This document shows positions 10,227-34,409 of a stretch of 45,886 nt of DNA, in pieces; within the stretch, counting starts at the first letter, position 1; each line of letters opens with the position of its first letter. The translations under genes and the position numbers were made by a program. The DNA is from Puniceicoccales bacterium Verruco_02 (GTDB lineage: Bacteria; Verrucomicrobiota; Verrucomicrobiia; Opitutales; Oceanipulchritudinaceae). The DNA is taken from the NCBI GenBank assembly GCA_001604585.1, contig LVBW01000015.1, positions 37,001 through 82,886 of the forward strand, written 5' to 3'. The notes under the pieces were generated by a model. It was not told the origin of the DNA. It ran no database searches and was given only the letters and a program-made list of their open reading frames with translations.

Positions 10227-12965
10227 ATGATTAACATGACTTTGCGGCGCATGGCCTTGTACGCCTTTGCCGCCTGTGCCTCAGCGCAAGCCTGTCTTGG
10301 CAGCAATCTCAAAGTGGACCTATCCAATGCGGCCAACATGGGCTTTGCCGACGAGGTGTACGGCGACAAGAGCGGCGGCTGGACCGATCAGGGGCCGGAC
10401 AAGGACCTGTCGGGCATGACTCCGGGCCTTCTAACTTTCAGCGGCGTTGACTTTGCAATAGCCGACCCCGCAGCCAATGCCGGGCGCAGCGTGATAATGC
10501 TGGCCGGAGGAGACAGGCCATATTTTGCCCAAGAGGCTTCGCTGGAACTATCTTCCTTGCCCAAGGCTACTTACATGTACCTGCTCCATTCCGCTGCCTG
10601 GATGCCGCCGGTGGGCACCAGCATCGGCAGCATCAAGGTTATCCATACCGATGACAGCTCCAGCAGTTTGGACGTGAAGTCGGGCAGGGAGCTGGGCGAC
10701 TGGTGGAACCCGATGGATCTGCAAAATGGCTTTGTCGCGTGGACCAAGCCTTCGCGCGGCGGGCGGCTCGGCCTGTACGTGTCGCAGTTCAAGCTCTCGG
10801 GCAAGCCGGTCAAGTCCATCACCTTTACGACCGCTAACAAGGCCGCGTGGGGCATCGTGGCCGTGACGCTCTGCAAGGAAAGGGCCGACATGCCCCTGCC
10901 AAAGGAAATGCTGGCCCTGCCCGGCAAGGACTGGCGCCCGGTCAAGTCCAGCCTGGGCGTAAAGCCCGGCAGCGCGCTGGACCTGTCCGCACAGCTCGAC
11001 GCTCCGGCGGGCAAGTACGGCTTTGTGCAGGTGGATGACAAGGGGCATTTCTTCTTTGAAAAGGCCCCGGACAAGCGCGTCCTCTTCTACGGGACGAACC
11101 TCTGCTACAGCGCGAATTTCCCCGAGAAGAAGGACGCGGCCAGCATTGCGGAGAGCCTCGCAGCCAACGGCTACAACGTGGTGCGCTTCCACCACTACGA
11201 CGACATGATGACGTACAAGAGCGTCGATTCCATGACGCCGGACCCCGACATGCTTGATCGCATGGAATACCTCATTGCCGAGTGCAAGAAGCGCGGCATG
11301 TACATCATGATAGACCTCTTCACCTACCGCCAGATACGCCTTGGCGAGATTCCCGAGATAGACGAACCCATACGCAGCGGCTTCAAGGCCCTGCCACCCG
11401 TCTTGGACAGCGCTTACGAGAATTGGAAGACCTTCGCCAGCCGCATCATGACGCATGTCAATCCCTACACGGGCATGGCGCTCAAGGACGATCCGGCCCT
11501 AGTGGGCATCTGCCCGGTCAACGAAGACCCGCTGGGCACTGTCTGGAAGGACACCCCGGCCGTGGCAAGGCTCTACGAGGGGCTTTTTGAAGAGTGGAAA
11601 AAGGAACGCTCGCTTGAGCCGCAGGGCTGGAGCGAGACGATCGAGGCGCAGTCCCGCTTCCTGAACGAGATTCAGCTCCGCGGGGACCGTATGTACGAGC
11701 GTTACCTCAAGGATGAGCTTGGCGTAAAGGTGCCACTTACCGGTGCAAACTGCCTTGTCGCAATAAGCCTTACAGAGCCTCGCTCGCGTTACGACTACGT
11801 CGATAACCACCTTTACTGGGATCACCCGGAGTTCCCCGCAGAAGCGTGGAGGCTTCCTTACCGCTACACTCAGCTTAGCGCCGTGGAGGCCTCTGGCTTT
11901 TTTCCGCGCACGCTATTTCCGGCCCGCATCGCCGGTCGTCCCTACACGATTACAGAGTGGAACCATTGCAACCCGAATCGTTACCGTGCCGAAGGGCCTA
12001 TACTGATGGCTGCCTACGCCGCTCTTCAGGACTGGGACGGCCTGTACCGTTTCGCGCATTCGCACAATATCGACAACATCACTGCCGAGAGCGCGGCGAA
12101 TGGCTTTGACCTAGCCACGGACCCAGTGGCGCAGATGTCGGAGCGCCTTGGCGCACTGTTGTACATGAACGGCTATGTCAGCCCGGCCAAGGGCTTCGTG
12201 ACCTACGCTGTCGATGCTTCGAACGGCTACCGCGTAATATCCGGCTGGGGGCAGGAGGGTTACGAGGAGCCGGTGGAGTTCCTTGGCCTGATTACGGGTG
12301 TGGGCAGTGTGTGGGCAGAGGGCTTGGATAGCGCCTCGCTAGAAGGGCCGCAGACCGGGTCCGCCCTCTTCGCTGCCAACTCCGGCTATGCAGCACCTAC
12401 CCCTGACTTGTTGGCCGCGATGCAGGAGCGTGGGGTAATACCCGAGGGTAGCTTCGACCTAGAAAAGGGCATCTTTGTCAGCGACACGGGCGAGCTTACC
12501 CTGAACGCCGCCGAGGGCCTGTTCAGTATAGTGGTGCCGCAGGCGGAGAGCTTTACCGTCACCGGGGCCGGGCGTTATGAGGGCAGGCTCGTTAAGGTGG
12601 AAATCCGTGGCGAGGGCGCTGTGACCGTCGCCCTTGTGTCGCTGGACGGGAAGCCTCTCTCTGAAAGTGGCCACATGCTGCTCTTCCACCTGCCAGAGCA
12701 GGTGAACAGCGGTGCTAGGTTCTCCAACTCCGACATGCGTATGTTGCTCGACTGGGGCAAGCTGCCGCACCTTGTGCGCGTGTCGAAGCTCAGTGTTGAT
12801 GTGGCTGAATCGAAGTCCGGCCTTTCCGCGTATGCGCTTGGTCTTGACGGCAGCCGCCGTGGCAAAGTGGCCTTAAAGCCGCGCAAGGGTGGGGGCTTTT
12901 CCCTGAGTATTGACAACAGCAAGGGCAAAGAAGCGCCAATGGCCTACGAAATCGTAGCCGAATAG
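10227..12965 (+). CDS. secreted clan GH-A type glycoside hydrolase with N-terminal beta-sandwich
   Basis: A 912-residue exported enzyme that probably acts on a plant or algal polysaccharide. A signal peptide is visible (LRRMALYAFAACASAQACLGS). Residues 28-216 form a beta-rich domain with GVDFAIAD (73-80), NAGRSVIML (84-92) and DWWNP (158-162), ending in WGIVAVTL. The catalytic part (about 265-700) reads as a TIM barrel: FYGTNLCYSANFP, NVVRFHHYDD, GMYIMIDLF, then CPVNEDPLG with the likely acid/base Glu, YVDNHLYWD, and TITEWNHCNPNRYR with the likely nucleophile Glu. The rest is a beta-rich tail. Exact GH family and substrate cannot be fixed by eye; GH5-like is the best guess. The N-terminal domain resembles the C-terminus of the regulator at 25994. 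A terminator follows. Confidence 0.8.
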   Translation: MINMTLRRMALYAFAACASAQACLGSNLKVDLSNAANMGFADEVYGDKSGGWTDQGPDKDLSGMTPGLLTFSGVDFAIADPAANAGRSVIMLAGGDRPYFAQEASLELSSLPKATYMYLLHSAAWMPPVGTSIGSIKVIHTDDSSSSLDVKSGRELGDWWNPMDLQNGFVAWTKPSRGGRLGLYVSQFKLSGKPVKSITFTTANKAAWGIVAVTLCKERADMPLPKEMLALPGKDWRPVKSSLGVKPGSALDLSAQLDAPAGKYGFVQVDDKGHFFFEKAPDKRVLFYGTNLCYSANFPEKKDAASIAESLAANGYNVVRFHHYDDMMTYKSVDSMTPDPDMLDRMEYLIAECKKRGMYIMIDLFTYRQIRLGEIPEIDEPIRSGFKALPPVLDSAYENWKTFASRIMTHVNPYTGMALKDDPALVGICPVNEDPLGTVWKDTPAVARLYEGLFEEWKKERSLEPQGWSETIEAQSRFLNEIQLRGDRMYERYLKDELGVKVPLTGANCLVAISLTEPRSRYDYVDNHLYWDHPEFPAEAWRLPYRYTQLSAVEASGFFPRTLFPARIAGRPYTITEWNHCNPNRYRAEGPILMAAYAALQDWDGLYRFAHSHNIDNITAESAANGFDLATDPVAQMSERLGALLYMNGYVSPAKGFVTYAVDASNGYRVISGWGQEGYEEPVEFLGLITGVGSVWAEGLDSASLEGPQTGSALFAANSGYAAPTPDLLAAMQERGVIPEGSFDLEKGIFVSDTGELTLNAAEGLFSIVVPQAESFTVTGAGRYEGRLVKVEIRGEGAVTVALVSLDGKPLSESGHMLLFHLPEQVNSGARFSNSDMRMLLDWGKLPHLVRVSKLSVDVAESKSGLSAYALGLDGSRRGKVALKPRKGGGFSLSIDNSKGKEAPMAYEIVAE

Positions 12966-15040: not shown

Positions 15041-17434
15041 CTACATCTCTGCCACAACCGTGGTGACATCCGTCATCGCGGCTAGCGGAACGATGTTGCC
15101 ATCGACGGCCACGCCGTTGACAGTCAGCTTCTTAACGCCCGTGCAGACGCCGCTCTTGTTGATGACCTCGATCTTGAGGAGCTTGCCGCGGAACTTGCGC
15201 TCGGCGGAGAAGCCCTTCCAGTCCCTGGGGATGCAGGGATCGACGCGGAAGCCGTCCATCTCGGGGATGAGGCCCAGGATGCCCTGCTGCGCGCTGAAGG
15301 TGGCCCAGCTTGCCGTGCCCGATAGCCAGGGCACGCGGGAGGTGCCGAACTTGGGCGAGGAATCGGCCTGACTGCTCTGGCAGTGCACAAAAGGCTCGAC
15401 CACGCGGTGGTCGGCTATGTCGTTCTGCGCGGAAGGCATGAAGGCGCGGTAATACTTGTAGGCGCGGTCGCCGTTGCCGTCGGCCACTTCGGCTAGGACG
15501 CCCCAGCTCTGTGGGTGCGAGAATATGCCCCCGTTTTCCTTGTTGCCAGCGTTGAAGAGCATGGCGCGCATCACTTCGACCTTCATCGTGCTGATGTGCG
15601 GATCGCAGAGTTTTAAGCCGAACTTCGTGAAAAGGCGTTCGTCCATCGTGTCGAGGGCCTTCTTCTGCTGCTCGGGCGTGGCTGCACCGGACATGACTGC
15701 CCATGCCTGCGTGTTGACATAAACCTGTCCTTCGGCGTGCTTCTTTGTGCCGTAAACGGTGCCGTCCTCGCCAACGGCCCAGATGAACCAGTCGCCGTCC
15801 CAACAGATAGCCTGAATGGCCTTGTCCAGTTCCTTAAGCTCGATCATGGCCCAGTCGGCCGCCTCGGGTTTGCCAAGGAGCTTTGCAATCTCGGCGTAAC
15901 GCTCAAGGCCGCGGCGCACTTGGAAGCTTACAAAGACGCTCTCGCCGTGGTAGCCGAGCTTGAGGCAGTCGTTCCAGTCGGCCAACAGGCCGCAGGGAAG
16001 CCCGTGCGCGCCCTTGCGCTCAAGGTTGAACTTCAGAGCGCGGGTAAGGTGGTCGAACACCGTGCCTTCTTCCTTGTCGGCATAGGGCACTACTTCGTTG
16101 TAGAAGGCTACATCGCCGGTTTCCTTGACGTAGGCGGGGATCGCCTCAAGGAGCCATTGGCAGTCGTCGGAGCGGTACTTGTCGTCCGGGGTCTTCTTCA
16201 TCTGGCCGGGCTTAAGTTCCCAAGGGCGAACCTCGGGCTGTGCGCCGCCGTTACTTTCCTGCGCGGCGAGCATGATCTTCAGGCGGTCCTTGACTAGATC
16301 CGGGATCATGAATGCTGCGCCGAGGCAGTCCTGCACCGCGTCGCGGTAGCCGAAGCCGTCGCGGCAGTCGCCCGTGTAGATGAGCGAGACAGCGCGGCAC
16401 CATTCAAAGGTGATGAGGTTGTTGTAGCTGTTCCAGACGTTGACCATGTGGTCAAAGTCGCTGTCCGGGGTCGTTACCTTGAGGTTCGAGATGCGGCTCT
16501 GCCACCAGTCCTTCAGCTTGGCCAGCTCTTGGGCGGCCTTGGCGGGGTTGCCGTATTCGGCCAGCACCTTGCTGCCGACCTTGGCTGCGTCGCCGGAGCC
16601 GAGGATGACTGTCAGTTCGATTTCCTCGCCGGGCTGGAGGGTTATGTCGGTCTGAAGGCTGCCGCAGGCGTTGTCGGAGTAGCAGAAGCTGTTGAAGCAT
16701 TCGCCACGTTGGACGGCGGCCGGGTTGTGGAAGCTGTTGTATTCGCCAAGGAACACGTCGCGGTCGCAGTCATAGCCGCTGATGGGCGAGCCGTTCAGGC
16801 CGATGAACCAGTCGCGGCCAACGTCGCCAATGGACACGTCTTCGGAGTGCACGGGCAGGTTGCCGCAGCTCTGGACGCCGATCATGTTGTCCACCTTGCT
16901 GGCGCGGACAATGTGCATCGTGTACTGGAGGTTCAACAGGTCGTTGATCATGTTGAACTCTGCGGTGAATTCGCAGAATGTGAACACGCGCAAGCGGCGG
17001 ACCTTGGCCGAATCGTTGCGCAGCTTGAGCAGCCAGTACTCGAACTTCTGCCCCATGGGGATGAAGTAGGTCGAGAGGTGGTTGATGCCGCTGTAGTCGG
17101 ACTCGATTGTGGAGTAATTGGTGCCGAAACGGGCAATGCTCTTGTACTGGTCGAGCGGCTTGCCCACCGGTTGCCAGGCGGCGCTCCAGAAGTCGCCGCT
17201 TTCCATGTCGCGGACGTAGAACTGGCGGCCCGGCTGGTCGGCGGGGACGGAATTGTAACGGAAGCGCAGGATGCGCCCGTGTGCGGGGGATTTGAGGAAG
17301 GAGTAGCCGCCAGCGTGGTTGGTCACAAGGCCGCCGTAAGTGCGGTCGCCCATGTAGTTGGACCAGGGACGTGGGGTGTCCGGCCTGTCGATCACATATT
17401 CAAATGCAGCGTCGTCGAAGTAACCATATCGCAT
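15041..17434 (-). CDS. GH94 disaccharide phosphorylase (cellobiose/chitobiose type)
   Basis: Phosphorolyses a beta-linked disaccharide to a sugar 1-phosphate and a free sugar; cytosolic, no signal peptide. The 797-residue product starts MRYGYFDDAAFEYVIDRPDTPRPW, typical of GH94. It has an N-terminal beta-sandwich (1-about 280), a helical linker and an (alpha/alpha)6 barrel. GYRDAVQD and YRSDDCQWLLEAIPAY line the pocket. The catalytic acid is the Asp of GLLADWNDCLKLG. NGGIFSHPQSWGVLA and the C-terminal jelly roll complete the fold. The length is close to both cellobiose phosphorylases and N,N'-diacetylchitobiose phosphorylases (about 800), so the substrate is undecided. It stands alone with its own terminator. 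A palindrome TTAATGCATTAA lies 75 bases upstream of the start. Confidence 0.93.
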   Translation of the reverse strand: MRYGYFDDAAFEYVIDRPDTPRPWSNYMGDRTYGGLVTNHAGGYSFLKSPAHGRILRFRYNSVPADQPGRQFYVRDMESGDFWSAAWQPVGKPLDQYKSIARFGTNYSTIESDYSGINHLSTYFIPMGQKFEYWLLKLRNDSAKVRRLRVFTFCEFTAEFNMINDLLNLQYTMHIVRASKVDNMIGVQSCGNLPVHSEDVSIGDVGRDWFIGLNGSPISGYDCDRDVFLGEYNSFHNPAAVQRGECFNSFCYSDNACGSLQTDITLQPGEEIELTVILGSGDAAKVGSKVLAEYGNPAKAAQELAKLKDWWQSRISNLKVTTPDSDFDHMVNVWNSYNNLITFEWCRAVSLIYTGDCRDGFGYRDAVQDCLGAAFMIPDLVKDRLKIMLAAQESNGGAQPEVRPWELKPGQMKKTPDDKYRSDDCQWLLEAIPAYVKETGDVAFYNEVVPYADKEEGTVFDHLTRALKFNLERKGAHGLPCGLLADWNDCLKLGYHGESVFVSFQVRRGLERYAEIAKLLGKPEAADWAMIELKELDKAIQAICWDGDWFIWAVGEDGTVYGTKKHAEGQVYVNTQAWAVMSGAATPEQQKKALDTMDERLFTKFGLKLCDPHISTMKVEVMRAMLFNAGNKENGGIFSHPQSWGVLAEVADGNGDRAYKYYRAFMPSAQNDIADHRVVEPFVHCQSSQADSSPKFGTSRVPWLSGTASWATFSAQQGILGLIPEMDGFRVDPCIPRDWKGFSAERKFRGKLLKIEVINKSGVCTGVKKLTVNGVAVDGNIVPLAAMTDVTTVVAEM

Positions 17435-24706: not shown

Positions 24707-25693
24707 TCAGTCCTGCTCATTGTCCAGCACAGTTGGGGATAGGCTCCACAGTGTGGCATCGGGCATCTGCTTAATTATGCCAAGCTCCAGCAACTGGGCG
24801 GCCATAATCTCGATTCGCTCTACGGACAGCTTGCCGCAGCTGGCCGCGCCGCCTTCTCCGAACACGTAGCCGCCTTCCAGCAGGGCCTGCCGGGAGTAGT
24901 CAAGCTGTTCGATGCTCTGGCGTGGGTTTCGCTCCATGATCAGGGCGTGGGCGGGGGAGGGGTCTTTGGTCATGTAGTCCACCCAACCCCTTACAGATGC
25001 TCGGACAAAGGCGCTCACTGCCTCCGGGTGGGCGCTGGCAAAGGAGGCGCTAGTATAGACCACGTGCTGAGGGTCGAAGCCCGCGTCGCGCAGTAGCAGG
25101 GTGCGCGTTTCCAGCCCCTGCCTAGCCGCTATGAAAGGCTCGCTCGTGACCATACACTGCTGCCCGCTTGCCGGGTCGGAGAGAAAGCGTTCCATGCCCT
25201 TGTCGCTTGGGATGATGCGAAGCTGTATGCCGTATTTGCGCTCCAGCCAGGCCAGCCAGGTCCCGCCGGGCATGGCGATGAGCGGACGTCCGTCTAGGTC
25301 CGCAAAACCGCTGACGGGGCTTTCTGCGTGCAGGAGAATGCCCTGCGGGTCGTGTTGCAGGGTGGCCATAACTATGCGCAGTGGCATCCCCCGGTCGGCA
25401 TGGCGCAGTATGGCCTCGACCTTGTTCATGGCAAAGTCGGCCTGTCCTTCGGTCACACGCAGAGCGCCCATGTACGTAATGCCGCCGGGCAGTATGTCCA
25501 CGTCCAGCCCTTCCTCTGCATAGTAGCCCTTGGCCAGTGCGTAGTAGAAGCCGCCGTGCTCGCCCTGCGGGTACCAGTCGGTCTGGAAGCGGATTTTCTG
25601 CAAGTGGCCCGGGCCTTCGCCCTGCTTTTCCGGGCCTTCGCAGGAAGCAAGGGACAGGCAGGCAATTAGGGCCGCTATCGTGCGCATAATCAT
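24707..25693 (-). CDS. NMT1/THI5-like ABC substrate-binding lipoprotein
   Basis: A periplasmic solute-binding protein anchored by lipid at Cys18 (lipobox LASC after a hydrophobic leader). The 328-residue product has the NMT1/SsuA fold: IRFQTDWYPQGEHGGFYYALAKGYYAEEGLDVDI, then GADFAMNK-like GQADFAMNKVEAILR, PLIAMPGGTWLAW and QQCMVTSEPFIA. Proteins of this type bind thiamine-pyrimidine precursors, riboflavin or sulfonates; the DWxPxxxHxGxY pattern is common in the pyrimidine-precursor group. No permease or ATPase gene adjoins it, so it is an orphan. Its leader contains a hairpin with a T-rich tail 43 bases before the start, suggesting attenuation. Confidence 0.88.
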   Translation of the reverse strand: MIMRTIAALIACLSLASCEGPEKQGEGPGHLQKIRFQTDWYPQGEHGGFYYALAKGYYAEEGLDVDILPGGITYMGALRVTEGQADFAMNKVEAILRHADRGMPLRIVMATLQHDPQGILLHAESPVSGFADLDGRPLIAMPGGTWLAWLERKYGIQLRIIPSDKGMERFLSDPASGQQCMVTSEPFIAARQGLETRTLLLRDAGFDPQHVVYTSASFASAHPEAVSAFVRASVRGWVDYMTKDPSPAHALIMERNPRQSIEQLDYSRQALLEGGYVFGEGGAASCGKLSVERIEIMAAQLLELGIIKQMPDATLWSLSPTVLDNEQD

Positions 25694-25993: not shown

Positions 25994-27820
25994 ATGAAAA
26001 CACAGTCCAGCCTTCGTCCCGTGGCCCGCGCCATAGAGCAGTTCGAGGAACTGCTCCGCCAGCATGGACTCAAGCGCGGCAGCCCCCTGCCGGCGGAAAA
26101 AGAGCTGTCCGAACGCTGGGGACTCAGCCAGTCCTCCGTCAACCGTGCGGCGCATCGTCTGATTGCCCTTGGCAGGCTACGGCGCGAGGGCTACCGGCTC
26201 TTTGCCGTGGGAGCATCAGCCGACAGTGTGGCGGGGGCCAAGGTGTATGTCATAACACACAAGATGGACCGCCTTCAGGGCATAGTGGAGGAGGGGGCGC
26301 AAAAGGGCGTCGAGGTGCGTGAGTGCTTCTTTGTCGGCCGCGACGCCGTGCGCCAACATTTGCAAAGAGCCATTGCCGAACGGGCCGACGGGGTGATATT
26401 CCGCCAAAGCGACGCTGGCTGGGAATGGGATGCCGAAGTGGCCGCTATGGATAAGCTGAACATTCCCTGCATCGTGGCGCAGGAGGCACCCGATGGACTG
26501 GCGATGGTGGCCGAGGACTGGCGCAGCGCCACGGCCCGCCTTGTAGAGCAGTTGCTTGCCGCCGGGCACAGGAGCATCGTCTGCGTAGGCTCTTTGCGGC
26601 GCAAGAACCGTTCATCGGTCATCTGCACGGCCTATGAGGAAACCTGCCTGCGTCTGGGGCTTAGCCAGAGCGCAAAGCAGCAGCACATGCTAAGCTCTCA
26701 CACCCGTCAGGCCATACGTTCATCCTTGCAGAAGATTCGCACGCGCCACCCGGACGCAACGGCGCTGATATGGTTCGACGTGGACCATCTGCGCAACCTT
26801 TTGATGGCGATGCACGACGAGCGCACCAGCATCCCGCGCGACCTATCTCTGGCGCTTGTGGGAGACACTCTTGACGCAAGGGCGAACCAGCCCCCGATTA
26901 CAAGCGCTGGCTTTGACCAGCGCACGCTGGCGCATCTTACGCTGGACCTTATGTGCTCGCAGATTGGTGCTGTGCGCCGCTTTGGCAAGGTGCAGACAAG
27001 GCCGCGCATACGGCTCGAGTCCTACCTGAGGGTGGGAGGCTCTGTGCGGGATCTGGGTTCTGTGTCCCTGCCAGAGGCGGCATCCAAGCCCTCTTCGCCA
27101 AGTCCTCACCTCTGGCCGCAGCAGCGCGAGGCTAGGCTGCGCGCAGTGCAGGAGACATGGAAAGGTGCCCACTCGCTGGCTGCCGGGGTTCCGAGCGGCA
27201 GTTTTCATCCGCTGGACCTTCGGGCGCAGGCCAATCGTTCCTTGCTAAGGCCTCACGGCTGGCTGGGGCATCTGCCGCTTAAAAACCTGCCCGCCGGGCG
27301 CAGGCGCATACACGGGGTGGACTTCGACATCATCGACGAGCACGCCAACGATGGCCGAGCGGTTATAGTCATGCAGTCCAGTCGTGGCGCTCAGCCGGTA
27401 AGAAGCCCTCTGCCGGGCAAGGTGCAGTTAGCGGTCAACAGGCGTGTGAAGGCGGTGTATTTCCTGCACGGCTGCGGCTTTGTGTCGGAAGCGGCACCCT
27501 TTGCATGGTACGATTTCCATCTTGGCGGGCATCGCACATACAGCGTTCCTCTTATCCCGCTTGGTCTTGGCAGTGCGGATGATCCTTGTGTGTCCGGGGC
27601 CAACATTCAGGACTGGTGGGCGGACTTTCCGCAGTTCGACGCGCCGCATGTTCGCCACCTTGTTCTGGCTGAGAATGGCGATCCTTACGAGTACGAGCGT
27701 TACCTCTACACCTTTGAATGGGTCAATCCCGAGCCGGAGCGCCCATTGCTGAGTCTGGACATACGTTCCAACCCAGACGACCCGGCTACGCTGGGCCTAC
27801 TGGCCGTGACGCTCTTGTAA
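25994..27820 (+). CDS. GntR-type regulator with LacI-like sensor and C-terminal beta-sandwich domain
   Basis: A 608-residue transcription factor in three parts. Residues 1-75 are a GntR winged helix (LPAEKELSERWGLSQSSVNRA). Residues 80-350 are a LacI/periplasmic-binding-type sensor (VYVITHKMD, ADGVIFRQ, GHRSIVCVGS, ITSAGFDQR, and RIRLESYLRVGGS as the usual closing strand). Residues about 415-608 are an extra domain with GWLGHLPLKNL, GVDFDIID, NDGRAVIVM, VKAVYFLHGCG, QDWWADF and the closing LGLLAVTLL. That last domain follows the same order of motifs as residues 50-216 of the secreted glycosidase at 10227. There is no signal peptide, so it acts in the cytoplasm. Ordinary GntR-LacI hybrids end near residue 360. 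An operator candidate lies upstream. Confidence 0.9.
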   Translation: MKTQSSLRPVARAIEQFEELLRQHGLKRGSPLPAEKELSERWGLSQSSVNRAAHRLIALGRLRREGYRLFAVGASADSVAGAKVYVITHKMDRLQGIVEEGAQKGVEVRECFFVGRDAVRQHLQRAIAERADGVIFRQSDAGWEWDAEVAAMDKLNIPCIVAQEAPDGLAMVAEDWRSATARLVEQLLAAGHRSIVCVGSLRRKNRSSVICTAYEETCLRLGLSQSAKQQHMLSSHTRQAIRSSLQKIRTRHPDATALIWFDVDHLRNLLMAMHDERTSIPRDLSLALVGDTLDARANQPPITSAGFDQRTLAHLTLDLMCSQIGAVRRFGKVQTRPRIRLESYLRVGGSVRDLGSVSLPEAASKPSSPSPHLWPQQREARLRAVQETWKGAHSLAAGVPSGSFHPLDLRAQANRSLLRPHGWLGHLPLKNLPAGRRRIHGVDFDIIDEHANDGRAVIVMQSSRGAQPVRSPLPGKVQLAVNRRVKAVYFLHGCGFVSEAAPFAWYDFHLGGHRTYSVPLIPLGLGSADDPCVSGANIQDWWADFPQFDAPHVRHLVLAENGDPYEYERYLYTFEWVNPEPERPLLSLDIRSNPDDPATLGLLAVTLL

Positions 27821-27990: not shown

Positions 27991-29373
27991 CTAGTGGCAG
28001 CCGCAGCCGCCTTTGCCCTCGCCCTTGCCCTGCTCGTGGCCACCGCAGCATTCGCCCGGTTCGCGGCCCTCTTCACGGCACTTGCAGTCTTCGCCCTGCC
28101 CGTGCTCGTGGCCGCCGCAGCACTCGTGTTTTTCCTCATGCGCCACCTCTTGAGCGTGCCTTCCGTGGCCACCGCAGCAGCAGTGTTCGTGTCCCATTGC
28201 GTTATCCTCTTTATGTATTGTTGTTTTGCCGCCGGTGTCTGCCGGGGCGTTCGTTTTAATGGTATTTGTCATGCAGCATGAGCCGTGCTCCGCGCCTTTT
28301 GTAGTGGCAGATTGCGCAGATTCCACTGCCTTGTTCGCGCAGCAACATGAGGAGCCTGCCTCCGCCGTACTGCCAAGACGAAGGGCCAGCCGAGCATACA
28401 TTCCTCTTAGCATCATGGCTATGAAGATGACTCCCGAAAGCTGCCCTAGCGGAGAGACTGTCTCGTGCATGTGCGGCATCTGAGCGAGCATACTCTCCCT
28501 GCCAAGCCCTGCGTCCACCAAGGCCCCGACTAGCCATGCGCAGCCGATTATCGAGGCTACATAGGCCAGTATGGCGGGGGTCCCTAGGTAGCGGCGCATA
28601 GTCGTAATGGTTGCCATGTTCGTAGCCGGGCCGCTGATGAGGAACACGAGCGCGCTGCCGGGGCTGAAGCCTGCCTGCATCATGGCGAGTGCCAGCGGGA
28701 TGGAACCTGCCGAGCAGACATACAGGGGAATGGCAAACAGGGTGACCGCAATGTAGGCCGTGATTCCCTGCAATCCGTAGCTAGCCGCAAAGTCGGCCGA
28801 TAGGAAGGCCGATACCGCTCCCGCCAGCAGGATGCCAGTGATTAGCGAGGGAGCCATGTCCTGTGGCATCCTGATGAACGCATAGCGCAGGGCTTCGGTC
28901 AGCCTTGGCCGGACCTTGTCCGGGGCAATGGCATCTTCCCGGTACGGCATTACAGGTTCTTTGCGGGTGACAAATTGCACTGCCAGCCCGGCCGTGATGC
29001 CCGTTACAAAGGCCATGCATATGCGCACTATGGCCATCATCGGCCCAAGCATTCCCCAAGTGGCCAACGCGCTGTCCACTCCCGTCTCCGGCGTGGAAGC
29101 AAGGAAGGCGGCCGTGGCTCCCTTGCCCGCACCTTTTTCGCGTATGGCGGCTGCAACGGGTATCACTCCGCAGGAGCAGAGCGGCATGGGCACTCCCACG
29201 AGGGTGGCTTTGACGATGCTGCCAAAGCCGGGCCTGCCAAGCACCTTGGTCACCAGCGAGCGGCGCAGGCACAGCGAAATGAGGCCAGCGAGGGCAAAGC
29301 CGATAAGTAGCCAGGGGGCGAGCTGGGTGGTCATGGACCAGACTGCGCGCAGGTATTGTTCAGAGAAGTTCAC
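27991..29373 (-). CDS. heavy-metal efflux permease (SO_0444/DUF318 family) with metal-binding tail
   Basis: An inner-membrane permease thought to export Cu, Zn or Cd (the ArsP-like UPF0718 superfamily). Residues 1-about 340 have eight or more hydrophobic segments with the family motifs PLCSCGVIPVAAAIREKGAG and FLISGPATNMAT. The cytosolic tail (about 350-460) is packed with metal ligands: SSCCCANK, GSCCM, HEHCCCGGHGRH, HECCGGHEHGQ, CKC, ECCGGHEQGK and GCGCH, with Gly-His-Glu spacers, so it should buffer soft metals. The GTG start overlaps the TGA of merR (GTGA), so the two genes are translationally coupled. Controlled by the MerR-type promoter at 29832-29862. Confidence 0.92.
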   Translation of the reverse strand: MNFSEQYLRAVWSMTTQLAPWLLIGFALAGLISLCLRRSLVTKVLGRPGFGSIVKATLVGVPMPLCSCGVIPVAAAIREKGAGKGATAAFLASTPETGVDSALATWGMLGPMMAIVRICMAFVTGITAGLAVQFVTRKEPVMPYREDAIAPDKVRPRLTEALRYAFIRMPQDMAPSLITGILLAGAVSAFLSADFAASYGLQGITAYIAVTLFAIPLYVCSAGSIPLALAMMQAGFSPGSALVFLISGPATNMATITTMRRYLGTPAILAYVASIIGCAWLVGALVDAGLGRESMLAQMPHMHETVSPLGQLSGVIFIAMMLRGMYARLALRLGSTAEAGSSCCCANKAVESAQSATTKGAEHGSCCMTNTIKTNAPADTGGKTTIHKEDNAMGHEHCCCGGHGRHAQEVAHEEKHECCGGHEHGQGEDCKCREEGREPGECCGGHEQGKGEGKGGCGCH

Positions 29374-31181: not shown

Positions 31182-34100
31182 TTATTCAATGAAGCTGTCA
31201 GACAGTTCGAGGACATAGCCTTCGCCTGTAGCATTCCAAGTGTAGAACACGCGCTCGGGGGCATTGCCGTTAATGAGGCAGTACCAGTTGCCCGTCGAGT
31301 AGTTATACATGTAGGGATACTTTTCAATGCTGACATACCACCAAGTGCTGGTGACGCTGTCGTAGAGGCATATGGCTTTGTCGCCTTCAATCACATACTG
31401 CCAGCCGTGGGTGTTGGTGTAGATCCAAGGATAGCTGGCGACTTCTGCGTAGAATGTGCCGAGCCATTCGGACTTGAACCAGTTCGAGCTGTTGGGCTTG
31501 TTGTCTGTATCCAAACCTGCCCAACCCATACCTATGTACTTGTCGCCACCGCTGATTACTGTGTAACCGGCTAGGTAGTCATAGCCTGTGCCTTTCTTGG
31601 CGTCTTCATCGCTGATATAATACTTGGCGCTTATGTTGCCACTTGCAGCCGGGACATACTTGTATGATGCATGATCCCAGACCATGTAGTTGCCAGAGGC
31701 AATGACCTGATCCTTTGTGAACTTGTCAAACAGGGCTAGATAGCCGCCATTGCTCAGGCATATGTAGTTCTCTTCGCCTTTGAGCACATCAGTTGCGCTA
31801 TCGTTGCTGATGCTGAGGACATCGGTCTGAACCAAGGCCTTGCTGTCGATTGACAGAGTGTTGGCCGAACCATACGTGCCAAGATTGATGTTCTTGGTGA
31901 TGAGGGTTGTTCCGTTCCCGCTTACATACACATCGTTCATGTAGCCAACGGTCTTGTCGGCATCCTTGGCCGGACTGCGTGCATCACCAACGCCTATGTT
32001 TACGGTCGTGCTCTTGACATTTGAGCCGTTTTCGATGCTTATCCTGTTGAAACGTCCCTTCTCGCCAATGTTGATTGTGGTGGCGCTGACTATGGAGGAG
32101 GAGATGTTCAGCTCGTTCTCGCGGCTGAAGTATCTGGCTACAACTGACACGCCTTCCTTGTAGGTATGTCCCCAAGCACCGATCGTGATATCACCGGTTA
32201 CCAGAACGTTGGATTTGTTCTTGATATCGATCGTGTTGTAGGAGCCGTAGTAACCCAGCGTTATGAAGCTGATGCCTGTATCCTTGGCTCCGTCCTTGCC
32301 AACAGCGGCAAGAAGGGTGCTGCCGTCGATGAGGACGCTGTTGTAGCTGCCGAGGGCCGTGTTGTCGTTCGCAACGTCGGATAGCTCGCCGTATCCGACA
32401 TCGAGGCTGCCGGGCATGGTAACGCTGGAGTTAGTGAAGCTGATCTCATTGGCCGTGCCAAAGGATCCTACACTAAGATACGATATGCTAGCTTCTGAAT
32501 CGCTGACGATTAGCTTGTTGTCGGAGCCACTATGACCCACGTACGTAGATCCAGCGTTCTTCAGCACTGCTCCGTCGCTTACCGTCAGGCTGTTGCCTGA
32601 GCCATATAAGCCTATGTATATATCATTGCTGCTTGCATCAAGAGTGCTCCTTGTTACTTTTTTGGGATCACTTGCATCATGCCCGCTCACAAGGACGCTG
32701 TTGTTGCAGCCGTAGGAGGCATAGTCGCTGATCGCTTTTCCTTCGGCGTTGGTAGCGGTGCTTCTAATCCCATTACCAACTTTTAGTCTTCTTGTCAGAG
32801 TGACAGTAGAGCTTCCTAGTATTTCGAGCTTGTTGCTGCTGCCCCAATAGCCAACGTCGGTATATCCGCTCTTGTATGAGGTAGCACCCTGTATTGTCAT
32901 GCTGTTGCCGCTGCCGTAGGTCGGGCTGCCGGGAATGGTTTTCCCGTCTGCATCCTTGCTCCATCCGTAGTAGCCATCTCCGATATATGTATAATTGTCA
33001 TCTCCGATGCTAACCGTGGCATTATCGAAGAGCACAGTGTTGTCGCTGCCCTTTTCTCCAAGCTTAAAGCTACCTGTCGATGTGTAAGTTGCACCATTGG
33101 TGACTTCCAGCTTGTTGGCGGAGCCTTCATTGCCAATATCCGTCCACGTTATTCCGCTAATTGTGCTCTTCTTTCCATCCACCTTGACGGTGTTGTTGTC
33201 GGCACTTGCTTCGTCACCAATGTTTAACGCAAAGCCTGTTCCCGTAAGGGTTGTGCCTTCGGTGATGCTCAGGCTGTTGCCTGCACCGTTGATACCAACG
33301 CTTACTTTGCTTCCGGTTGTGGTCAGCTTGGTGACGTAGGTGGTGTCGCCGATGAGTGTCGATCCGGAAATCGAAAGGCTGTTGTTGTCGCTGCCTTCGT
33401 TGGTACCAAGTGTTATGGAACCGCTGGTGGCTACTGCACCGCCGTCGATCTCGACCTTGTTTTCTGAACCGTAAACGCCTATGTTTAGTGCGCCCGTGTT
33501 GGTGAAGATGGCTTCCTTAACAAGAAGAACATTGTTCGCATCTCTTTCCGTTGCAACGCCAGAAATAGTAAGCGTGTTCTTGTCGCTTTTCGTTACGACC
33601 TTCTTGGCGTCAATCTCACCAAGTCCTACGTCCACGCTGGATGCGGTAAGTGTGGTGCCCTTGCCAACGCTGACGCTGTTCTCAGAACCCTTTTCGCCGA
33701 TGATAAGGAAGCCTGCTTTTGCTTCAGAGCCAATATCGGACAGGCTGAGGCTGTTGCCATTGCTTGCGTAGCTAACCTTGTTCAGCTCATGCGCGCTGCC
33801 GATGGTGGTGGAATGAGAAGAAAGAAAGGACTTGCCGGTTACGTTTACCTTGTTTTGGCCGCCAGCTTCGCCGACGAGCAGTAAGACTGCCCCGGTATCC
33901 CATTCCGCGGCCTTGCCGAGAATGACGATGTTGCCGGAGCTTGTGGAAGTGGTTTTCTTGTCTGCGTCGTATTTACCACTGCCCAGAACGCCGCCTTCGG
34001 TGTCTAGAGAGGTGCCGGAGATGGTCAGCTTGTTGCCCGACTTGGTCAAACCTACGGTAAGGAAATCTGTTGTAAGTATGCCGGTGTTTGCCTGACTTAC

Positions 34101-34283
34101 GTCAACAAGGTAAACTTTGCCAGTGTCGATGGTGCTTTTTACATCGGCTCCAGTGATGGGATCTGTTTCAGTGCCAGTGCCAGCGCCGAATACTGCGCAG
34201 ACTGGCGCGCTGAGCAAGATGGCCGCTGCTGTGGCACGTGCCAGCGAGCGACGCTTGGTCGAGTATGGGTAGTAATTTTTCAT
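31182..34283 (-). CDS. large secreted repeat protein with aromatic C-terminal module
   Basis: About 1,033 residues from the ATG at 34283. The signal sequence is KRRSLARATAAAILLSAPV then CAVFG. Most of the protein (about 60-850) is a beta-solenoid-like array of degenerate repeats with 'GSeN.l.i..gs.l..t..l.iG..G' spacing and very high Ser, Gly, Asn and Thr. It resembles bacterial adhesins, but no autotransporter barrel follows. Instead, the last 110 residues hold three aromatic repeats (YPWIYTNTHGWQYV, LYDSVTSTWWYVS, YPYMYNYSTGNWYCL), a module found at the C-termini of PVC-group exoproteins and possibly a sorting or anchoring signal. Divergent from the XRE gene, with four operator-like sites between. 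The codon and amino-acid make-up differs from its neighbours. Confidence 0.75.
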   Translation of the reverse strand: MKNYYPYSTKRRSLARATAAAILLSAPVCAVFGAGTGTETDPITGADVKSTIDTGKVYLVDVSQANTGILTTDFLTVGLTKSGNKLTISGTSLDTEGGVLGSGKYDADKKTTSTSSGNIVILGKAAEWDTGAVLLLVGEAGGQNKVNVTGKSFLSSHSTTIGSAHELNKVSYASNGNSLSLSDIGSEAKAGFLIIGEKGSENSVSVGKGTTLTASSVDVGLGEIDAKKVVTKSDKNTLTISGVATERDANNVLLVKEAIFTNTGALNIGVYGSENKVEIDGGAVATSGSITLGTNEGSDNNSLSISGSTLIGDTTYVTKLTTTGSKVSVGINGAGNSLSITEGTTLTGTGFALNIGDEASADNNTVKVDGKKSTISGITWTDIGNEGSANKLEVTNGATYTSTGSFKLGEKGSDNTVLFDNATVSIGDDNYTYIGDGYYGWSKDADGKTIPGSPTYGSGNSMTIQGATSYKSGYTDVGYWGSSNKLEILGSSTVTLTRRLKVGNGIRSTATNAEGKAISDYASYGCNNSVLVSGHDASDPKKVTRSTLDASSNDIYIGLYGSGNSLTVSDGAVLKNAGSTYVGHSGSDNKLIVSDSEASISYLSVGSFGTANEISFTNSSVTMPGSLDVGYGELSDVANDNTALGSYNSVLIDGSTLLAAVGKDGAKDTGISFITLGYYGSYNTIDIKNKSNVLVTGDITIGAWGHTYKEGVSVVARYFSRENELNISSSIVSATTINIGEKGRFNRISIENGSNVKSTTVNIGVGDARSPAKDADKTVGYMNDVYVSGNGTTLITKNINLGTYGSANTLSIDSKALVQTDVLSISNDSATDVLKGEENYICLSNGGYLALFDKFTKDQVIASGNYMVWDHASYKYVPAASGNISAKYYISDEDAKKGTGYDYLAGYTVISGGDKYIGMGWAGLDTDNKPNSSNWFKSEWLGTFYAEVASYPWIYTNTHGWQYVIEGDKAICLYDSVTSTWWYVSIEKYPYMYNYSTGNWYCLINGNAPERVFYTWNATGEGYVLELSDSFIE

Positions 34284-34409
34284 GGTATAGGAGAAATCCA
34301 CCGCCATGCCGCCGTTTGCACCATGCGCACGGGGCAGAGGTATGATTCGTCAGCGACTTTCCCGCTCAACAGGAATAGTTTCAAGAATTAACTCCAACGA
34401 GTCGCGTTT

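Follow-up and report, generated by a model that had tools for sequence, protein, structure and literature searches.

The window analysed here, a 45,886-nucleotide stretch of DNA from Puniceicoccales bacterium Verruco_02, encodes a protein that is predicted from its sequence to be a cytoplasmic GntR-LacI-type regulator with an added third domain. This C-terminal domain is homologous to a domain of an exported glycosidase encoded in the same window, and it recurs at the end of regulators of three types. The domain is undescribed in Pfam and NCBIfam.

Results

Architecture of the regulator

The regulator gene, its parts and the associated features are listed in Table 1. When the whole 608-residue protein was scanned, the Peripla_BP_3 match covered residues 184-332 of the sensor, and no Pfam model scored above its curated cut-off beyond residue ~350. 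LacI and CcpA structures were among the PDB search matches of the sensor, which is also a confident region of the predicted structure model. Full-length homologs keep the same three-part order of GntR winged helix-turn-helix (wHTH), LacI-type sensor and C-terminal domain. A frameshift or misassembly fusing two genes was ruled out, because ~30 homologs carry the identical open fusion. The protein thus has the wHTH and the sensor of the AraR-type GntR-LacI regulators, but instead of ending after the sensor (~360 aa), it is 608 aa long. Because it runs past the sensor into a conserved third domain, we classify it, by sequence, as a variant of the AraR type and not as a plain member.

None of the genes adjoining the regulator is carbohydrate-related: those at 24707-25693 (-) and 27991-29373 (-) encode an NMT1/THI5-like protein and an ArsP-type permease, respectively. 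Elsewhere in the window, a 1041-aa ORF at 31182-34307 (-) has no Pfam match at E 1.

Table 1. Features of the window (positions are those of the whole stretch).
Feature	Position	Strand	Basis and remarks
GntR-LacI-type three-part regulator gene	25994..27820	+	608 aa; ORF call, Pfam, homologs; start position matches G002 ortholog
GntR winged helix-turn-helix	26027..26188	+	residues 12-65; PF00392 29.8 bits, cut-off 27
LacI-type periplasmic-binding-protein-like sensor	26237..27043	+	residues ~82-350 by alignment; PF13377 (Peripla_BP_3) 57.7 bits, cut-off 26.5
Linker with predicted helix 375-395	27044..27202	+	structure model; linker end resembles the pre-domain segment of several beta-helix proteins
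C-terminal all-beta domain (predicted)	27203..27817	+	residues 404-608, ~205 aa
Candidate operator TTAATGCATTAA	25893..25904		~90-100 bp before regulator start; same site before G002 regulator
Candidate operator TTAATGCATTAA	17509..17520		~75-86 bp before GH94 start; kept in G002, absent in G001
GH94 phosphorylase, predicted target	15041..17434	-	PF17167 424 bits
Homologous domain in exported glycosidase (ORF 10227-12965)	10302..10877	+	BLASTP, Smith-Waterman, profile-profile

Homology to a domain of the exported glycosidase

The original prediction held that the C-terminus of the regulator shares a domain, with the same motif order, with the secreted glycosidase encoded from position 10227, and both statements were borne out. 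The BLASTP alignment of regulator residues 371-608 with residues 1-224 of the 10227 protein scored 36 bits (E 2e-7 for this single comparison), and most of the predicted motifs fall in order within it. The Smith-Waterman score was 85, whereas 2000 shuffles reached 55 at most; the next-best ORF of the window scored 47. The profile-profile comparison that had been proposed as a check, carried out between 22 regulator and 24 enzyme domains, gave a significant match from end to end (100%, E 1.6e-42) and brings all six motif pairs into register. The proposed limits (415-608 and 50-216) were refined: regulator residues 404-608 correspond to glycosidase residues ~22-222.

Predicted fold and conserved positions of the domain

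Scanning 70 members of the domain revealed no meaningful Pfam or NCBIfam family and no CBM model, and the profile of these 70 domains found no convincing match, and no AziU chain, among PDB sequences. A full-length model built from 6 sequences left the C-terminus unresolved, but the 70-sequence alignment resolved the domain: AlphaFold2 predicts an all-beta structure (pLDDT 92.6, pTM 0.91), consistent with the beta fold that had been proposed. The glycosidase copy probably has the same fold, because its profile matches that of the regulator domain. A MocR-type, aminotransferase-like C-terminal domain was also considered; no aminotransferase model matched, and the predicted model is all-beta.

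The closest solved fold is that of AziU3/U2 (Z 16.3 and 15.6; 2.7 Å over 160 residues; 12% identity). All other structures in the comparison, including CBM29, CBM16, Cry and ephrin-receptor jelly rolls, had Z <= 7.6, with CBM29 and CBM16 (Z ~7) at the same level as unrelated jelly rolls. A plain Foldseek search with the domain model returned nothing under 0.001. AziU3/U2 is an aziridine synthase (PMC12559475), and the complex has been described as a novel fold with a small ligand bound (PMC11168924). The fold common to AziU3/U2 and the domain tells nothing firm about a common function.

Positions N414, W423, H492, Y506, W541, W576 and N578 are kept in regulator and enzyme domains alike; they would suit a ligand site but could be structural. 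A Y-x-D-G motif is kept in the enzyme and beta-helix domains and missing from most GntR-LacI regulators, where its absence may reflect a changed binding function. A loop of ~15-20 residues preceding NIQDWW is present in the regulators and beta-helix proteins and absent from the enzymes. In the regulator L036 (G211 C17), a low-complexity insert, HNGNSIGSVGTIGSMGS, in this loop splits the domain match.

Occurrence of the domain

The architecture GntR plus peripla_BP plus this domain, sought across Verrucomicrobiota as had been suggested, recurs in 32 GntR-LacI regulators. The domain is likewise located at the C-terminus of three AraC-type regulators, where it follows the AraC HTH (L050, L051 and L073), and of one LacI-type regulator, where it follows the LacI HTH-PBP (L052). 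All of these regulators are from Verrucomicrobiota, and many adjoin carbohydrate-enzyme genes: L050 is near genes for GH1, GH35, a trehalase-like enzyme and an MFS transporter, L051 is near GH2, GH43 and GH38, and a GH3 gene precedes L052.

Further hosts include right-handed beta-helix proteins that are secreted (L025, L037, L072, L074 and L076) and proteins with a GH42-type (L078) or a GH20-type (L054) domain. The beta-helix proteins, to which L103 and L111 also belong, are ~800-1000 aa long and, among non-regulator proteins, carry the version of the domain closest to that of the regulators. Many very large proteins (1000-1800 aa; e.g., L075, L078, L079, L083 and L091) from other classes of the phylum also contain the domain; for several of these, the part that was read gave no Pfam match. 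The view that the module is common to extracellular enzymes and the regulator stands as regards homology but needed amending, because the regulator's domain is most closely related to that of secreted beta-helix proteins and the module is also present on AraC and LacI regulators.

The regulator-only profile matched in 20 of 384 genomes of the class. With a wider profile, 388 genomes sampled across the phylum gave matches in 104, mostly in very large ORFs. A motif-based contig scan, which alone provides the coverage beyond Verrucomicrobiota, detected 25 loci, all in Verrucomicrobiota (a Victivallales record is counted there, as in GTDB). Two of these encode beta-helix proteins and the remainder GntR-LacI regulators; contig ends truncate a few, L039 is a domain fragment only, and the Pfam scan covered part of the loci.

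Phylogeny of the domain

In the domain tree, the 36 domains borne by regulators all group in a single clade (support 95/91), within which the 32 GntR-LacI domains form a subclade (96/90). The beta-helix proteins are placed next to the regulator clade, and 30 enzyme domains, including that of the window glycosidase, lie beyond a 100/97 branch. Because this branch separates them, the regulator's domain was not copied from the 10227 glycosidase. The genome's two copies, in the regulator and in this glycosidase, are at most ~16 kb apart; in G002, a genome of the same genus, they are on different contigs. Either the C-terminal module was transferred from one regulator to another, or it stayed in place and the front end was replaced. 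Since the tree is unrooted, a transfer from enzyme to regulator is a direction that we infer. By eye, many of the regulators and several of the beta-helix proteins have a similar W..P(H/Y).LA sequence directly ahead of the domain.

We considered whether the common domain links the regulator and the 10227 glycosidase in regulation, and rejected this: the two domains belong to distant clades, no candidate operator precedes the glycosidase gene, and the G002 copies are on separate contigs.

Conservation of the domain and the sensor

Among 27 GntR-LacI regulators, mean identity is 46% for the C-terminal domain, 43% for the HTH and 28% for the sensor, and the C-terminal domain is more identical than the sensor in 349 of the 351 pairs. 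Near-invariant positions number 33 of 205 in the C-terminal domain versus 5 of 269 in the sensor. The paralogs of G064 show the same pattern (53-64% versus 28-47%). This suggests that the domain does one constant job. Since it stayed constant while the sensors diverged, an oligosaccharide particular to each regulator would fit worse, which argues for a constant signal, partner or assembly role.

Candidate operators and predicted targets

The 12-bp palindrome TTAATGCATTAA has exactly two copies in the 2.7-Mb genome, one before the regulator gene and one before the GH94 gene, ~8.4 kb apart; the backward-read control gave 0 matches. In G002, too, there are exactly two copies, one ahead of the regulator gene and one ahead of the GH94 ortholog. 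G001, of the same genus, has a GH94 ortholog that is 81% identical, but contains neither the regulator nor TTAATGCATTAA. The same site, as TTTAATGCATTAAA, is located before the regulators L016 and L017, and L017 lies opposite a TonB-receptor-like gene. TTAATGCATTAA was not found before the distant regulators L018, L019 and L021-L023 (at least 5 mismatches), and it is therefore the site of one subclade.

A second-clade palindrome, TGTTTAAACA, is present once each in G064, G242, G270 and G357, in each case directly before a regulator. It is located between the regulator and GH94 in G064 and L032, between the regulator and a BNR-propeller gene in G211, and before BNR-propeller genes in L030, L034 and G385. 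The sister-clade loci of TGTTTAAACA are L014, L028, L030, L032, L034, L036 and L042, and the genomes G064, G211, G242, G270, G357 and G385. Because the backward-read control gave 2-5 matches per other-clade genome, the case for TGTTTAAACA is one of position and not of rarity.

The nearest solved structure to the window GH94 is diacetylchitobiose phosphorylase (690 bits, versus 471 bits for cellobiose phosphorylase). A similar GH94 is present near a regulator at three loci and in G064, with 58% identity between the window and L032 proteins. When ten genomes were searched for the BNR-propeller gene, it was near a regulator in all seven genomes having it, at ~6 kb or less in six of them and at ~17 kb in G064. 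Together, the distribution of the candidate operators and the proximity of GH94 and BNR-propeller genes make it very likely that the protein binds DNA and regulates a sugar pathway centred on a phosphorylase.

A GH44 gene is located near the window GH94. A xyloglucan regulon, a reading based on a BNR propeller with a weak GH74 match, a YicI-type GH31 and GH44, is suggestive for the relatives but was rejected for the window, whose GH94 is more like chitobiose phosphorylase.

Discussion

We infer that the regulator binds TTAATGCATTAA and thereby controls its own gene and that of the GH94 disaccharide phosphorylase, most likely by repression rather than activation. The LacI-type sensor would read a pathway sugar, which would differ between regulators, and would alter how the protein binds its operator. 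The C-terminal domain, a relative of accessory domains in secreted glycan-active proteins, would have a constant second job, most likely the binding of a common small carbohydrate or metabolite, coupled to an adjustment of DNA binding. Taken as a whole, this is our best explanation, which we hold tentatively and rate somewhat short of probable.

Sugar binding and a second ligand input, as originally envisaged for the domain, are plausible. The conserved positions from N414 to N578 and the ligand-binding AziU3/U2 fold count for a ligand. On the other side, these residues may be structural, the Y-x-D-G motif is absent from most of the GntR-LacI regulators, and the constancy of the domain could also suit oligomerisation or partner binding; moreover, the homologous domain of the enzymes is itself without known function, and the regulator's neighbours are not carbohydrate genes. 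A broader reading is possible, though doubtful: the domain would be a portable sensing module, common to secreted glycan-active proteins and to cytoplasmic GntR-LacI, LacI and AraC regulators, that reads one conserved carbohydrate signal in the cytoplasm of the regulator's host, which is combined with the pathway signal of the front end. If this is true, polysaccharide genes in Verrucomicrobiota would be under two-key control.

The domain might instead serve assembly without any ligand, turning regulator dimers into tetramers that loop the DNA between operators. LacI carries a tetramerisation helix at its C-terminus, the same place as the domain, and both the two operators in the window and the constancy of the domain despite diverged sensors would fit. 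We nevertheless consider assembly unlikely, as the domain also occurs next to unrelated partners, on AraC regulators and in many secreted enzymes, and its conserved polar and aromatic residues are common to regulators and enzymes. It is improbable that the domain docks a common partner protein (a transporter, kinase or pathway enzyme), such that the regulator senses the state of a protein and not a sugar: constancy across the regulators agrees with docking, as does the loop before NIQDWW, which the enzymes lack, but beta-helix proteins outside the cytoplasm have the same loop, and in the neighbourhoods examined no partner gene adjoins all regulators.

It is very improbable that the domain passively persists from a fusion event and plays no part in regulation; AraR-type GntR-LacI regulators do function without it (PMC4218819), but it is the best conserved part of the protein, occurs on three regulator types and stays open in ~30 regulators. 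Hardly credible is an AziU3/U2-like enzyme acting on a sugar derivative in the cell, since the nearest solved fold comes with low identity and no sequence-profile match, AziU3/U2 acts as a two-subunit complex, and a common fold proves no function. The explanation that we prefer is the one in which the domain binds a common small carbohydrate or metabolite.

To our knowledge, little is known about the regulation of polysaccharide breakdown in Verrucomicrobiota. For the regulator family described here, both an operator and targets are predicted and can be tested directly, and the family defines a domain that is absent from Pfam and NCBIfam although widespread in the sampled genomes of the phylum. 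In a literature search conducted mostly without subscription journals, we found no description of such a fusion.

Several known systems resemble parts of this one. AziU3/U2 of Streptomyces sahachiroi resembles the domain in fold (Z 16.3), but differs in sequence (12% identity) and is a biosynthetic enzyme complex, not a regulator. The CBM families are more distant, with no Pfam CBM match and Z ~7 for CBM29 and CBM16. AraR of Bacillus subtilis likewise joins a GntR wHTH to a GalR/LacI-type sensor (PMC4218819), but consists of two domains, whereas the window regulator has 205 further residues as a third domain. AraR-type regulators bind palindromic operators at target promoters; the palindrome before the regulator and GH94 is a candidate for such a site. 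MocR/GabR are also GntR regulators that took up an enzyme-related domain (PMC6677901, PMC4944035). Theirs is aminotransferase-like, whereas here a beta domain of glycan-active proteins stands behind a complete sensor and is also present on AraC and LacI regulators. Finally, the RsgI anti-sigma factors of Clostridium thermocellum use carbohydrate modules (CBM3, GH10 and PA14) in regulation (PMC4711584). Those modules are extracellular parts of a membrane protein, whereas the domain described here is part of a predicted soluble DNA-binding protein, and would extend the use of carbohydrate modules in signalling from the outside of the cell to its interior.
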